DNA from: Aequitasia blattaphilus
Lineage (GTDB): Bacteria > Bacillota > Clostridia > Lachnospirales > Lachnospiraceae
Direction of reading: 5' to 3'
Assembly: GCF_024721305.1 (NCBI RefSeq)
Contig: NZ_JAMXOD010000004.1
Span: forward strand, 1 to 64,000
Length of the DNA stretch: 64,000 nucleotides
Shown here: positions 1 through 9,025 of the stretch, in pieces
How the letters are laid out: every line of letters begins with the position of its first letter
Numbering within the stretch: the first letter of the stretch is position 1
Program-made: the position numbers and the translations under genes
The notes under the pieces: model-generated
Databases searched by the model: none
The model's input: the letters and a program-made list of their open reading frames with translations, nothing else
What the model was told of the DNA's origin: nothing

Positions 1-54
1 GAAAGAACTGAGAAAGCGATGGAAGAACTTCGTAAAGCAGGATATATTCAATAG
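1..54 (+). CDS. C-terminal end of an unidentified protein (cut by window edge)
   Basis: The first 17 codons of the window read in frame to a TAG stop at 52-54 and end in ERTEKAMEELRKAGYIQ. A transcription terminator follows within 15 bases, which supports a real gene end. The tail is a charged helix and is too short to name; the ending resembles the last helix of small ACT-like domains, but that is only an impression. Confidence 0.6.
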   Translation, partial: ERTEKAMEELRKAGYIQ

Positions 55-66
55 TGAATCTATGTA

Positions 67-113
67 AGGGTGTAGTAAATGATTTTAAACTTTGCTGCAC
101 CCTCTTTTTTTTT
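67..113 (+). terminator. Rho-independent terminator
   Basis: A 13-pair stem (arms at 67-79 and 91-103, two G-U pairs) with an 11-base loop is followed by a run of nine T. It ends the partial gene at the window edge and sits between it and the next promoter. Confidence 0.85.
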
Positions 114-124
114 GGTGGTTCCCG

Positions 125-133
125 TGCTATAAT
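125..133 (+). promoter_or_regulatory. Extended -10 promoter for the GNAT-ThrE operon
   Basis: TGCTATAAT at 125-133 is a perfect -10 hexamer with the TGN extension. No good -35 box can lie upstream because the terminator T-run occupies that place, which is typical of extended -10 promoters. The Shine-Dalgarno AGGAG follows at 144-148. Confidence 0.6.
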
Positions 134-155
134 CTTCTATTACAGGAGTAAAAAA

Positions 156-1394
156 ATGAGAGTTGAACCAATTTTAAAGGATAAGGAAGATTTCTTGGAT
201 GTGCTGCTAATTGCAGACCAGGAAGAAGGCATGGTACGGCAGTACCTGGAAAAGGGAGAGTTGTTTGCTCTTTATGACGATGAAGTCTTAAGGGCTGCTT
301 GTGTTGTCGTCTTATTGAATAATCGGAAATGTGAATTAAAGAATATCGTTACACTGGAAGAAGACAGAAACAAAGGGTATGGAAGTTATTTAGTGAACTA
401 TATATGTGAGTACTATAGTGGTACCTGTGATTTAATATATGTAGGAGCGGGAAACACAAAAGAAGCTTTGAATTTTTACCATAAGCTTGGGTTTGAAAAT
501 TCCCATATAAAAGCAAACTTTTTTATTAATTATTATCAGCAGCCCTTGTTTGAAAACGGGGAGCGGCTGCGAGATATCATTTATCTAAAAAAGCGATTGG
601 AATCAGAGGTCAATGTAAAGCGAGTTGTAGATTTGGCTTTAAAGGCAGGGGAACTACTTTTGCAGTATGGAGGAGAAATTTTTCGTGTAGAAGAGACAAT
701 TACCAGGGTGTGTAATCGTTTCTTCGTAGATAAGGTTGATACTTTTGTGATTAGCCATGGTATATTTATTAGCGCTCGTAATGGTGAAAATGATGTATAT
801 ACCAGGGTAAAGCATGTTCCCCTATCGGGAGCTAACCTGGAAATTGTAGCAAAAGTAAATGAGTTATCCCGAGAAATTTCAGCAGGGAAAGTAGATATTG
901 ATGAAGCCTTTAAGCGATTGGATCAAATCGAAAACACCTTGCCGGTAAGGGCACGATATCGTGTTTTGGCTGGAGGATTGGGAAGTGGATTTTTTGGATA
1001 TTTGCTGAGTAATGGAGCGCTGGTTGAAAGTATTATCGCATTTTTTATCGGATGCATTTTATACGTATGGGTTCTATTCGCAAAAAAGCATAATGTCCCA
1101 AAGATTATATTAAACATTATGGGGGGGATTATTATTACCACCTTGGCATTAGCAGCAACCAATATTCCTCTTTTTGCCTCTCAGCCTAAAATGGATCCGA
1201 TTATTATAGGGGGAATTATGCCGTTGATTCCAGGAGTTGCATTTATTAATTCAATACGTGATATTGCAGATGGTGATTTCTTGTCTGGAACGGTTCGTAT
1301 GATTGATGCCTTGCTGGTCTTTGTATATATTGCAATAGGAGTCGGGGTGGTTCTGGGGATTTTTGATGGTATGATAGGAGGGCTGCTATTATGA
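156..1394 (+). CDS. GNAT acetyltransferase fused to ThrE-type exporter subunit (DUF1212)
   Basis: The 412-residue protein has two parts. Residues 1-148 are a GNAT N-acetyltransferase: R71-x-x-G-Y-G is the acetyl-CoA loop and FYHKLGF (107-113) is the usual late motif. Residues 153-412 match the ThrE/YjjP family: a cytosolic region of about 110 residues, then about five membrane helices with the conserved MPLIPGVAF segment. ThrE exports threonine and serine in Corynebacterium; in E. coli, YjjP with YjjB exports succinate. The small partner subunit overlaps the 3' end by ATGA. I chose the ATG at 156 (AGGAG eight bases upstream); an upstream GTG at 54 would read through a terminator and promoter. 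The fusion is unusual and its substrate is unknown. The transporter part is firm and the acetyltransferase part is fairly firm. Confidence 0.85.
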   Translation: MRVEPILKDKEDFLDVLLIADQEEGMVRQYLEKGELFALYDDEVLRAACVVVLLNNRKCELKNIVTLEEDRNKGYGSYLVNYICEYYSGTCDLIYVGAGNTKEALNFYHKLGFENSHIKANFFINYYQQPLFENGERLRDIIYLKKRLESEVNVKRVVDLALKAGELLLQYGGEIFRVEETITRVCNRFFVDKVDTFVISHGIFISARNGENDVYTRVKHVPLSGANLEIVAKVNELSREISAGKVDIDEAFKRLDQIENTLPVRARYRVLAGGLGSGFFGYLLSNGALVESIIAFFIGCILYVWVLFAKKHNVPKIILNIMGGIIITTLALAATNIPLFASQPKMDPIIIGGIMPLIPGVAFINSIRDIADGDFLSGTVRMIDALLVFVYIAIGVGVVLGIFDGMIGGLLL

Positions 1395-1867
1395 TATGGG
1401 ATATTTTCTTGAATGTTGTATGTCCTTTTATGGGTACAATTGCATTTGCTGTCTTATTCAGTGTTCCATCAAAATACTTTATAAGCTGCGGGCTTACAGG
1501 GTTAATGGGCTGGCTTGCTTATTATTTCACAGAACCCTATGTATCCATAGCAATTGCCTCTTTTTTTGGAGCATTGGTAGTGGTTTTAATATCCCGAATT
1601 TTAACCGTTCGAAAAAAATGTCCCATTACAATTTTTTTGGTTGCGGGAATTTTCCCCCTGATTCCAGGATCAGGAGTTTATTATACTGCTTATTATTTAG
1701 TTACTAATCAGTTAAACCAAGCGGCATTTAAAGGCTTGGAATCTTTGAAAATAGCGTTTGCAATTGTAATAGGAATCGTTGTTATTGTATCAATTCCCAG
1801 ACAATTTTTTAGTATAGAGTACTGGGTTCGTAAATGGAAAAGAAAAGGAGAGTTTAAAAATGACTAA
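1391..1867 (+). CDS. ThrE_2/YjjB-type exporter subunit (DUF3815)
   Basis: This 158-residue, almost wholly hydrophobic protein has about four to five membrane helices and an [13 protein letters not shown] segment. That segment mirrors the MPLIPGVAF motif of the larger subunit encoded just upstream, as expected for the two half-subunits of the ThrE superfamily (single-chain in Corynebacterium, split as YjjP/YjjB in E. coli). The start overlaps the upstream stop (ATGA), so translation is coupled and the two products probably form one transporter. The substrate, an amino acid or a dicarboxylate, cannot be read from sequence. The 3' end overlaps gltX by eight bases. Confidence 0.85.
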
Positions 1868-5576: not shown

Positions 5577-6590
5577 ATGAAAAAACAATATAGAAGTATT
5601 TTTTTGTTGCTAATTGTCGTTCTGAGTCTGTCTTTAATAGGATGTAAGAAAAATGTAGGGACAGCAGAGGACAATCCAGTAAAGGAAGAAGAGGCTAAAG
5701 AAGAGAAAGAAAAGGATGAGACGGTTGAAAAGACGAAAATAGGAATATCAGTTGTAAACCTTGACAATCCGTTTTACAGTGTTATTTATCAATCCATATC
5801 TGAGGAAATAGAAAAAAGTGAGGACTTGTTGGTGGTTGCGAAAGATCCAGGTGGAGACGCACAGAAGCAGGAAGAACAAATTCTTGAAATGATAGATGGT
5901 GGAATAGAGCTGCTATTTCTTTCCCCAGTTAATTGGGAAGAGATTACTCCTTCGCTGGAGGCATTAAAGGAAGCAGGAGTTAAAGTTATTAATGTGGATT
6001 CAAGAGTTAAGGAAACGGAGCTGACAGATGCTTATATAGGCTCAGATAATGTAACGGCAGGGATACTCATAGGAGAGGATATGATAAAACGTTTCCAGGA
6101 AGGTGGAAAGATTGCCATCATAGAAACGAAAGGACAAAATGCCATTACCGATCGTATGAAAGGATTAGAGGAAACCATTGCAAAGGCAGAAAAAGGTTTT
6201 GAAGTAGTTGGAAGAAGCAGTGGTTTGGATTACGATTCATTAAAGTCTTATGCCAAAGAACTTCTGGTTGCTAACCCAGATATAGATGCAATTATATGCG
6301 GAAATGATCAGATGGCATTAGCGGTAAATGAAGGAGCAAAAGAGGCAGGGAATACCAAGGTTGAAATTTATGGTGTGGATGGTTCCCCCGACAGTAAAAA
6401 GGAGTTAATTAAAGAGGATACAAGGATTGTGGCTACTGTGGCACAATCCCCCATAAATATGGGAAAGAGTGCCTATAAAATAGCAAGGCAAATGCTTGAA
6501 AAAGAAGAGTATGAGAAGGAAACCTTAGAAACAGTTTTTTTGATTACAAAAGATAATGTAGATGCATACGGTGCAGACGGGTGGCAATAA
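5577..6590 (+). CDS. Sugar-type periplasmic-binding-fold lipoprotein (RbsB-like)
   Basis: The 337-residue protein has a lipoprotein signal (about residues 1-22, lipobox LIGC) and a lysine/glutamate-rich tether. A type I periplasmic binding fold of the ribose/galactose class follows: VNLDNPFYSVIYQSI, SPVNWEEITPSLEALKEAGVKVINVDSR, GSDNVTAG and GVDGSP. AGGAGG lies seven bases before the chosen ATG. It should be anchored outside the cytoplasmic membrane and bind a small ligand, probably a sugar. No ATPase or permease gene is nearby, so it may serve a distant transporter or act as a sensor. Its stop overlaps the next start (TAATG), tying it to the GH13-like gene. Confidence 0.9.
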   Translation: MKKQYRSIFLLLIVVLSLSLIGCKKNVGTAEDNPVKEEEAKEEKEKDETVEKTKIGISVVNLDNPFYSVIYQSISEEIEKSEDLLVVAKDPGGDAQKQEEQILEMIDGGIELLFLSPVNWEEITPSLEALKEAGVKVINVDSRVKETELTDAYIGSDNVTAGILIGEDMIKRFQEGGKIAIIETKGQNAITDRMKGLEETIAKAEKGFEVVGRSSGLDYDSLKSYAKELLVANPDIDAIICGNDQMALAVNEGAKEAGNTKVEIYGVDGSPDSKKELIKEDTRIVATVAQSPINMGKSAYKIARQMLEKEEYEKETLETVFLITKDNVDAYGADGWQ

Positions 6591-8284
6591 TGGAAAAAAG
6601 CGAAGGCAGTGTACTTCCCTTTGGGGTAAAGGAAACAAATGAAGGAGTTAATTTTTCTTTGGCAGTGAAAAATAAGGTACAGCAGGTAAGTCTTCTTCTT
6701 TACAAAAAAGAAGCAAAAGACCCGGTGCATAAGCTGCCTATGTTTAATCCAATTGGCAATATGTGGACTCTTATGTTAAAGCATGTAGAGGATAGGGAGT
6801 ATGAATACAATTATTTAATTGATACAGAAGTTTGTCTTGACCCATATGTAGAAGAAGTAACAGGGCGGGAGAAATTCGGAGAAAAAGTTTCAGAGGAAGA
6901 TTGTAGATTAAGAGGAAAGGTTTTTTCAAAACCCTATGACTGGGAGGGAGACGTTCCACTGAATCTGCCTTACCACAGTGTGATTGCCTACAGTCTTCAT
7001 TTGAGAGGATTTACAAAGCATTCTTCCTCAGGAGTGAAAAGGAAAGGGACATATCTTGGGCTGGTGGAAAAAATCCCATATCTGACAGAGCTTGGAATCA
7101 ATCAAATTCATTGTATGCCTTTGTATGACTTCGTGGAAAATCAGAGTTATCAGAATTATTGGGGATATGGAGAAGGGAATTTCTTTGCGCCAAAACCAAC
7201 CTTTGCTGCTCATAAGGAAGGAAAAACAGAACTAAAAGATATGATAAAAGCTTGTCATAAAGCAGGAATAGAAGTAATCCTTGAAATGCCATTTACAAAT
7301 CAAACATCTTATCAGTTGATGATAGATTGTCTGAGATATTATGTTATGGAATATCATGTAGATGGATTTATCATCAATCCGGAAATATTGTCCAGAGAGT
7401 CTCTGCTGAGTGATGGTGTGATTAGTAGTGTTAAAATTATGTACCATGATCTAAGCTACCAGACGGTTATGCGTCGATTTTTAAAAGGGGATGAAGGAAT
7501 GGTACAGGATGCAATGTACCAAAGCCGGAGATTTTCAGGAGCGGAGGGAACCTATAATTATATTACGAATCAAAATGGATTCACGTTATTGGATTTGGTT
7601 TCTTACGATGGAAAACACAATGAAGGAAATGGAGAGGGAAACTCAGATGGTCCTGTGTTTAACTACAGCTGGAACTGTGGAGCGGAAGGACCCAGTCGTA
7701 AAAAAGCTGTGAGGGAGCTACGGCAAAGACAAATCAGAAATGCATTTTTCCTGCTTTTAACATCTCAAGGGGTGCCTTTGATTTTAGCGGGAGATGAGTT
7801 TGGAAATTCTCAAAAAGGAAATAACAATGTGTACTGCCAGGACAATCCTATTGGGTGGGTAGATTGGAGTGTTTTCGAAAAAAACAAGGAAACCTATCAG
7901 TTTGTAAAAGAGTTGATTGCATTTCGGAAGTCTCATCCAATTCTGCATTCCAGTCAGGCGTTAATAGGACAGGATCAGATAAGCTGCGGTGTACCAGATG
8001 TATCTTATCATGGAGAAAGCGCGTGGATAGTTCCCAAAGATATTGCCAGCAGACACTTCGGGGTGTTTTACTGCGGAAAATTAGAAGAGGATAATGACAT
8101 ATATATTGCATATAATATGCACTGGCTGAGTCACAAGTTTGCAATCCCGGCAGGAGAGAAGGCAAAGGAATGGTATTTGGCAGCATCAACAAAGGATGGT
8201 GTCCTTGAAAAGCCACTGCTACTGAAAAATCAGCGAATGATAGAACTTGAAGAAAGAACAATATGGATTTTGGTGGAAAAATAA
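6590..8284 (+). CDS. GH13 isoamylase/GlgX-like protein lacking catalytic residues (pseudoenzyme)
   Basis: The 564-residue protein has an N-terminal CBM48-like domain (1-100), a GH13 barrel (about 128-460) and a C-terminal beta domain. It is clearly related to debranching enzymes: GDEFGNSQKGNNNVYCQDNP and DLVSYDGKHNE are almost unchanged from GlgX/isoamylases. The active-site regions are not. Region I (DVVYNH) reads EMPFTN (232-237); region II (DGFRFD) reads DGFIIN, so the nucleophile Asp is Asn263 and the Arg is Ile261; the acid/base Glu stretch is absent; the region IV His-Asp is Q328-N329. Hydrolysis is therefore unlikely, and a glucan-binding or sensing role is an inference. A GTG nine bases upstream is an alternative start. 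Confidence 0.87.
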   Translation: MEKSEGSVLPFGVKETNEGVNFSLAVKNKVQQVSLLLYKKEAKDPVHKLPMFNPIGNMWTLMLKHVEDREYEYNYLIDTEVCLDPYVEEVTGREKFGEKVSEEDCRLRGKVFSKPYDWEGDVPLNLPYHSVIAYSLHLRGFTKHSSSGVKRKGTYLGLVEKIPYLTELGINQIHCMPLYDFVENQSYQNYWGYGEGNFFAPKPTFAAHKEGKTELKDMIKACHKAGIEVILEMPFTNQTSYQLMIDCLRYYVMEYHVDGFIINPEILSRESLLSDGVISSVKIMYHDLSYQTVMRRFLKGDEGMVQDAMYQSRRFSGAEGTYNYITNQNGFTLLDLVSYDGKHNEGNGEGNSDGPVFNYSWNCGAEGPSRKKAVRELRQRQIRNAFFLLLTSQGVPLILAGDEFGNSQKGNNNVYCQDNPIGWVDWSVFEKNKETYQFVKELIAFRKSHPILHSSQALIGQDQISCGVPDVSYHGESAWIVPKDIASRHFGVFYCGKLEEDNDIYIAYNMHWLSHKFAIPAGEKAKEWYLAASTKDGVLEKPLLLKNQRMIELEERTIWILVEK

Positions 8285-8820
8285 TGAAGATATTAAAACA
8301 CTTACACACAATTAATACGCATAAGCTAATGGTCATGAAAATGCTGTTTAAAGTAGGCCTTTATAAGCAAGGATTGTTACATGATATGTCGAAATATACC
8401 TATACGGAGCTACGCGTTGGAGCGAAGTATTATCAAGGATATAGAAGTCCGAACAATGCAGAGAGAGAAGCGCTTGGCTATTCAAGCGCGTGGCTTCATC
8501 ATAAAGGAAGAAACAAGCACCACTTTGAGTATTGGATTGATTACAGTACAAATAAGGAAAGCGCATTCGAAGGGATTCGAATGCCGGTTCGATATGTGGT
8601 GGAAATGTTTGTCGATCGTGTGGCAGCATCGAAGACATATCAGAAAGAGAATTACAGGGATGACCATCCCCTGTTTTATTATGAACAAGGGGTGAAAAAA
8701 TTAGGAAATATGATTCATCCAGATACGTCAAAGCTATTACATCATTTGCTAAGGAAGCTGGCAAAGGAAGGCGAAAAGGAAACCTTTCGCTATATTCGGA
8801 AAGAGATACTAAAAAAATGA
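8284..8820 (+). CDS. DUF5662 family protein (HD-like motif)
   Basis: The 178-residue soluble protein begins MKILKHLHTINTHKLMVM and has GLLHDMSKYTYTEL, then a histidine-rich WLHHKGRNKHHFEYW and VEMFVDRVAAS. This is the DUF5662 pattern; the spaced His, HD and later Asp residues resemble a metal-binding HD-type helical domain, but no activity is known. The ATG overlaps the stop of the GH13-like gene (TAATG), so it is translationally coupled to it. No terminator is evident before the tRNA promoter. Confidence 0.8.
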   Translation: MKILKHLHTINTHKLMVMKMLFKVGLYKQGLLHDMSKYTYTELRVGAKYYQGYRSPNNAEREALGYSSAWLHHKGRNKHHFEYWIDYSTNKESAFEGIRMPVRYVVEMFVDRVAASKTYQKENYRDDHPLFYYEQGVKKLGNMIHPDTSKLLHHLLRKLAKEGEKETFRYIRKEILKK

Positions 8821-8979: not shown

Positions 8980-9025
8980 AGGTTACTATATTTCTTTATT
9001 ATAAAGGAATGTGGTGACCTTTTTT
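8980..9025 (+). terminator. Terminator of tRNA-Leu
   Basis: A long, nearly uninterrupted hairpin (about 19 pairs including several G-U, loop TTA) is followed by TTTTTT. It lies nine bases after the tRNA and just before the convergent ECF gene end. Confidence 0.8.

Follow-up and report, generated by a model that had tools for sequence, protein, structure and literature searches.

The locus at 6590..8284 (forward strand) of the window, the 64,000-nucleotide stretch of Aequitasia blattaphilus DNA analysed here (contig NZ_JAMXOD010000004.1), raises the question of what a relative of the glycogen debranching enzyme GlgX may do once its catalytic sites are gone. The ORF is open throughout, starts with the ATG at 6590 and codes for a 564-residue non-catalytic GlgX/isoamylase paralogue (pseudoenzyme) with a CBM48-like amino terminus, a GH13 barrel and an isoamylase-type carboxyl terminus domain. 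Sequence homology and the barrel flanked by isoamylase N- and C-terminal domains place it in the isoamylase/GlgX fold family. The closest solved structures are isoamylase 1 and GlgX, and the predicted fold follows that of ISA1 and GlgX from one end to the other. The match to the NCBIfam GlgX model TIGR02100 (E 7e-96, 321.8 bits) reaches about half of the curated equivalog cut-off of 640.9 bits; note that this cut-off is not sharp, as the intact GlgX that this genome also encodes scores under it as well, at 633.5 bits. The CBM48 match of 19.4 bits is below the Pfam cut-off (22.4), and only 8 of 60 clade members match CBM48 at E 0.001. The intact GlgX is encoded on another contig (C12) of the genome, which also carries glgA, and is 31.7% identical to the window protein over residues 19–564. 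No signal sequence was recognized by eye in the pseudoenzyme.

The catalytic regions of the intact GlgX read DVVFNH, DGFRFD, EAWD and HDGF. In the window protein region I (residues 232–237, 7283..7300, forward strand as for all segments below) reads EMPFTN for DVVFNH, and region II (residues 258–263, 7361..7378) DGFIIN for DGFRFD, the nucleophile Asp being replaced by Asn 263. The acid/base segment (region III) is deleted, its approximate place being 7439..7453, and region IV (7571..7576) has Gln-Asn for His-Asp within QNGF (residues 328–331). None of the three catalytic residues, nucleophile Asp, acid/base Glu and transition-state Asp, is left. This comparison bears out the initial annotation, made from the window sequence, in which all four regions were described as lost and the acid/base Glu segment as missing, the latter being correct for the window protein and its close relatives (the short group). 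In a longer sub-group that segment is present but mostly degenerate, the Glu being kept in 18 of the 142 catalytically dead sequences of the clade defined below. A second deletion, overlooked in the initial annotation, removes the loop that joins region I to region II: of the columns spanning GlgX residues 291 to 329, ten that GlgX conserves are empty in the clade.

The loss extends well beyond one genome. Among 227 loci, 222 ORFs matched the clade profile, giving 195 distinct sequences from which three fragments were dropped. All three catalytic residues are found in 50 sequences and one or none in 142 (32 keep one, 110 none), while no sequence has two. The 50 active GlgX proteins also keep all four further signature residues, seven in total. 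A tree built on rows selected by the analyst (66 of the 142 dead and 24 of the 50 active sequences) places dead and active members on opposite sides of a single branch with SH-aLRT 100, and the split persists in a tree of 62 + 24 rows built without regions I–IV and without the four longest branches. Splitting the sequences by their triad is partly circular; the empty two-residue class and the tree are not. The window protein thus belongs to one clade of predicted non-catalytic GlgX paralogues, and the homology to GlgX (E 7e-96) together with the clade-wide loss of catalytic residues rules out chance.

The initial annotation proposed Asn at 263 and Gln-Asn at 328–329 as markers shared by relatives, and took their lack of conservation as an argument against its own reading. 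The altered residues are not conserved: Asn 263 is common (84/142), while Gln 328 (21/142) and Asn 329 (55/142) are not, so that the proposed markers are only partly shared. The nucleophile position is otherwise occupied by Leu (11), Val (10), Lys (9), Met (9) and other residues, and two dead sequences retain the Asp yet lack the other two catalytic residues. The region I Asp position has Glu in 100 of 142 dead members. Such variation counts against a function of the particular replacements and leaves retention of the protein untouched; the common feature of clade members is the loss itself. Some early-branching members (e.g., locus L122, 1977–3926) have DGFRFN or DGFRxN in region II, which would fit an early Asp to Asn change of the nucleophile.

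The distribution of the clade was surveyed with a dead-clade profile built from a 46-sequence alignment (threshold E 1e-100). The profile matched 237 of 299 sampled Lachnospiraceae genomes, 235 after two proved to have GlgX only. Seventeen weaker matches were re-examined, which covers every carrier scoring weaker than 1e-148, the top GlgX cross-match there being 1e-108. Catalytic residues were read in the carriers that yielded loci, the remaining members of the 235 being assigned by profile score, and a few carrier genes are broken at contig ends. Named relatives include Faecalicatena, Claveliimonas, Dorea and Mediterraneibacter. In an order-level sample (146 genomes) near full-length matches occur in 13 Lachnospiraceae members, and 17 genomes from other families have only split GlgX-type matches (E 1e-60); 12 of these were fetched, leaving five, and all 12 have intact catalytic motifs. 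No full-length match outside Lachnospiraceae was found in a phylum-level sample of 249 genomes, where one outside genome has a split GlgX-type match with intact motifs, so that the fetched matches from other families are intact GlgX in 13 of 13 cases. In a plasmid search in which 495 records matched, the five matches listed are all annotated GlgX.

Loss of every catalytic site, with two deletions, is what a decaying duplicate of GlgX could look like. Pairwise dN/dS (NG86) within the clade has a median of 0.08 and a range of 0.05–0.48 in 21 non-independent pairs, one of which repeats the same sequence; pairs were limited to dS 0.1–1.5, higher values being near saturation, and the four pairs with dS below 0.8 give 0.08–0.11. 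This is the measurement that the initial annotation had called for when it suggested selection and not decay, and its suggestion is upheld: the ratio is low, a single clade runs across Lachnospiraceae and the loss is confined to the catalytic regions. As the gene is moreover retained in 235 of 299 genomes, with conserved gene order, decay is rejected by dN/dS and distribution and keeps only a minimal probability.

What purifying selection has kept is unevenly spread along the protein. Of the columns with at least 94% invariance in GlgX, the dead clade retains 24 of 37 ahead of region I, 6 of 55 within regions I–IV, 32 of 35 between region IV and GlgX residue 565 and 4 of 4 beyond it, towards the carboxyl terminus (Fisher p 5e-15 for region I–IV versus post-IV). 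The good conservation outside the lost sites described in the initial annotation is therefore real and strongest past region IV. There, the segment 7619..7834 codes for the kept residues Asn344, Glu349, Trp361, Asn411, Asn413 and Tyr415.

Several kept residues correspond to sugar contacts of characterized enzymes. In GlgX of S. venezuelae the residues that touch the -1 sugar are Trp222, Tyr224, His271, Asp342, Glu378, Trp380 and His449, and those that touch the other sugars are Arg212, Glu470, Asn534 and Tyr536 (PMC9530166); of the former, Trp222 and Tyr224 are non-catalytic. All of these but Arg212 were assigned a position in the clade. By spacing, W222, Y224, E470, N534 and Y536 are W191, Y193, E349, N413 and Y415 of the window protein, and their equivalents are kept in 141, 129, 141, 140 and 138 of the 142 dead sequences. 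The positions of H271, D342, E378, W380 and H449 are lost or variable. In maize ISA1, R504, N561, W578 and N628 are border-lobe residues, W578 contacting glucan at the secondary site SBS2 (PMC12510319); they correspond to R295, N344, W361 and N411 of the window protein, all four confirmed by cereal ISA1 spacing, with equivalents kept in 142, 142, 130 and 140 of 142 dead members. The W361 position is Trp in 42 of 50 GlgX proteins. Sugar contacts other than the -1 catalytic set are retained almost throughout the clade, which lends indirect support to the proposal of the initial annotation that selection acts for glucan binding; the pseudoenzyme may bind glucan. The kept residues could also serve folding alone. 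Note that model pLDDT is below 50 at residues 341–358 and 360–366, around W361, and the SBS2 site may therefore have lost its geometry.

The uncertain modelling near W361 also fits a protein that has lost glucan binding and acts as a protein–protein scaffold or in signalling, its conserved residues being structural. The genes beside it, coding DUF5662, TraX-family and sugar-binding lipoprotein products and not glg functions (see below), agree with such a role. This is rather improbable given Glu349, the equivalent of a sugar contact, which is kept in 141 of 142 dead members though Glu is found at that position in only 15 of 50 GlgX proteins.

The relation to active GlgX bears on a different possibility, a regulatory subunit that forms a heteromer with GlgX and modulates it, for which plant ISA2 provides a precedent (PMC12510319). 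With presence called at E below 1e-100, GlgX is found in 99 of the 299 genomes and is commoner with the pseudoenzyme (92/235) than without it (7/64; Fisher p 1e-5, kinship ignored). In loci L094 and L228 an active GlgX gene is about 2 kb from the pseudoenzyme gene. In one genome (L228, 7807–13738) an active GlgX, an ABC-F type ABC protein and the dead paralogue are encoded in a row on one strand. GlgX is nevertheless absent from 143 of 235 carriers, some of whose assemblies are incomplete, and this co-occurrence disfavours an obligate ISA2-type partnership. ISA2 is moreover reported to have SBS1 and lack SBS2 (PMC12510319), while the clade keeps the SBS2 Trp in 130 of 142 members. A regulatory subunit of this type has a low probability.

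Glycogen synthase is near-universal in the family, glgA being present in 289 of 299 genomes. It is so widespread that its co-occurrence with the pseudoenzyme says little: the latter is found in 4 of 10 genomes without glgA and in 231 of 289 with it (p 0.008), several of the ten assemblies being incomplete. Forty-five of the 143 GlgX-less carriers were examined for other debranching functions. Eleven have type I pullulanase and six of these eleven also have GDE_C, which leaves 34 of 45 glgA-positive carriers with neither (three models searched, including GlgX). This gap is a lead, not a result, as other GH13 enzymes could debranch glycogen. It would be filled if the barrel had been re-used for a new enzyme, with a different active site or a non-hydrolytic reaction, and the Glu found at the region I Asp position in most members could belong to such a site. 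We regard a new enzyme as unlikely, since none of the nucleophile, acid/base and region IV positions carries one conserved replacement, and the loop from region I to region II is missing.

The gene neighbourhood points to candidate partners. The order in the window is gltX, a UvrD-type helicase, DUF1292 (opposite strand), a sugar-binding lipoprotein, the pseudoenzyme and DUF5662; the pseudoenzyme gene is not beside glg genes. The lipoprotein-like protein (Peripla_BP_4, RbsB-like) is coded at 5577..6590 on the forward strand, its start being placed by visual inspection of the RBS and the signal sequence (mechanical ORF start 5538). The DUF5662 protein is coded at 8284..8820 on the same strand (mechanical ORF start 8263). 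At both junctions stop and start overlap in a TAATG (6588–6592 and 8282–8286), the A of the pseudoenzyme ATG being also the final base of the lipoprotein stop codon, which suggests translational coupling of the three genes. A terminator-like hairpin followed by a T run at 8980–9020, found by pattern match only, is consistent with the end of a putative lipoprotein–pseudoenzyme–DUF5662 operon. Further upstream in the window, an ORF at 54–1394 (forward strand) combines a GNAT acetyltransferase and a ThrE threonine/serine exporter domain, and is followed by a separate ThrE_2 ORF (1391–1867, forward strand), an arrangement that reads as a split exporter with a fused GNAT domain.

Across 81 loci (the window and 80 others) the lipoprotein gene adjoins the pseudoenzyme gene in 39 of the 43 from the short group and in none of the 38 from the long group. 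A profile-based recount covered 115 distinct loci that extend 900 bases or more beyond the gene; DUF5662 and/or TraX is directly 3' in 86 of the 115 (DUF5662 adjacent in 62, TraX then DUF5662 in 15, TraX alone in 9, neither in 29). The TraX-family protein (PF05857) is directly 3' in 24 of them, e.g., at L041 4978–5637 and L228 7149–7850; TraX is known from F-plasmid conjugation. The downstream linkage is found in 27 of 49 loci where no upstream gene was found, upstream sequence being short in some, which indicates more than shared synteny. DUF5662 is present in 246 of 299 Lachnospiraceae genomes, also in some that lack the pseudoenzyme, and no paper on it was found in the literature searched. 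DUF5662, TraX and the lipoprotein are thus candidates for partners or outputs.

Taken together, a cytoplasmic, non-cutting alpha-glucan-binding pseudoenzyme that acts as a scaffold or as a regulator or reporter of the reserve is the reading that we favour, and it is probably right. It is based on lost chemistry, a polymer-contacting shell kept under strong constraint, absence of a signal sequence and a near-universal glycogen synthase. GlgX would have been duplicated or acquired in Lachnospiraceae, and one copy would have lost the nucleophile, the acid/base and transition-state residues, together with the loop that separates regions I and II, after which selection would have preserved the fold and its glucan-contacting surfaces. 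The protein would bind chains of cytoplasmic glycogen or maltodextrin without cutting them and serve as a scaffold, or report on the glucan reserve, for its co-encoded partners, DUF5662 and the TraX-family protein, with the sugar-binding lipoprotein as a further partner in the sub-group of the window. The low pLDDT near W361, the few CBM48 matches, the lack of glg neighbours, the 29 of 115 loci without a partner and the occurrence of DUF5662 apart from the pseudoenzyme count against this reading. A more specific and only tentative possibility, on the whole unlikely, is a bacterial glycogen receptor in which the dead GlgX binds intracellular glycogen and signals the state of this store to the cell envelope by way of the TraX-family protein, DUF5662 and the lipoprotein. 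The lipoprotein would, equally tentatively, take part in one sub-group, and the receptor would persist in most carriers, where GlgX is absent.

These genes matter for the reading of genomes, as homology-based surveys can count them as debranching enzymes. A survey of glycogen genes in gut commensals used BLASTP with E below 1e-5 and 20% identity (PMC10395257), thresholds that the dead clade would probably pass given the 31.7% identity of the window protein to the GlgX of its own genome. In the genome paper on Butyrivibrio hungatei, a 648-residue glgX2 lacking CBM48 appears as a debranching enzyme (PMC5716241). Surveys that take the dead clade for GlgX misread how a dominant gut family breaks down glycogen. 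The clade is also useful for asking why dead isoamylases are retained. A bacterial dead GlgX was not found in literature searches, which covered few subscription journals. In the accessible text of a review of prokaryotic alpha-glucan enzymes (PMC11046441) "catalytically inactive", "noncatalytic" and "pseudoenzyme" do not occur, "non-catalytic" is used twice with other meanings, and an archaeal table has one "inactive isoform".

Comparison with known systems defines the particularity of the clade. GlgX/TreX, the glycogen debranching enzyme, is assigned to GH13_11 (partly after PMC12510319); the clade differs from it in lacking the catalytic triad (at most one of three residues in 142 sequences), in the deleted loop between regions I and II and in the TIGR02100 score (322 bits for the window protein). 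Plant and algal ISA1 are likewise active, unlike the pseudoenzyme. Streptomyces-type sensing of c-di-GMP, by which S. venezuelae GlgX is regulated, is unsupported, the N-domain RxxD motif that marks it being absent in a scan of the window protein alone. A parallel is plant ISA2, an isoamylase paralogue that is catalytically dead yet maintained by selection (PMC12510319), which shares with the bacterial clade the loss of catalytic residues. The clade described here differs from ISA2 in being bacterial and having arisen within the GlgX relatives sampled, in the absence of an active partner from 143 of 235 carriers and in the retention of SBS2 and border-lobe residues. Dead isoamylase paralogues are known from plants, and this clade, of which no earlier report was found, is their bacterial counterpart.
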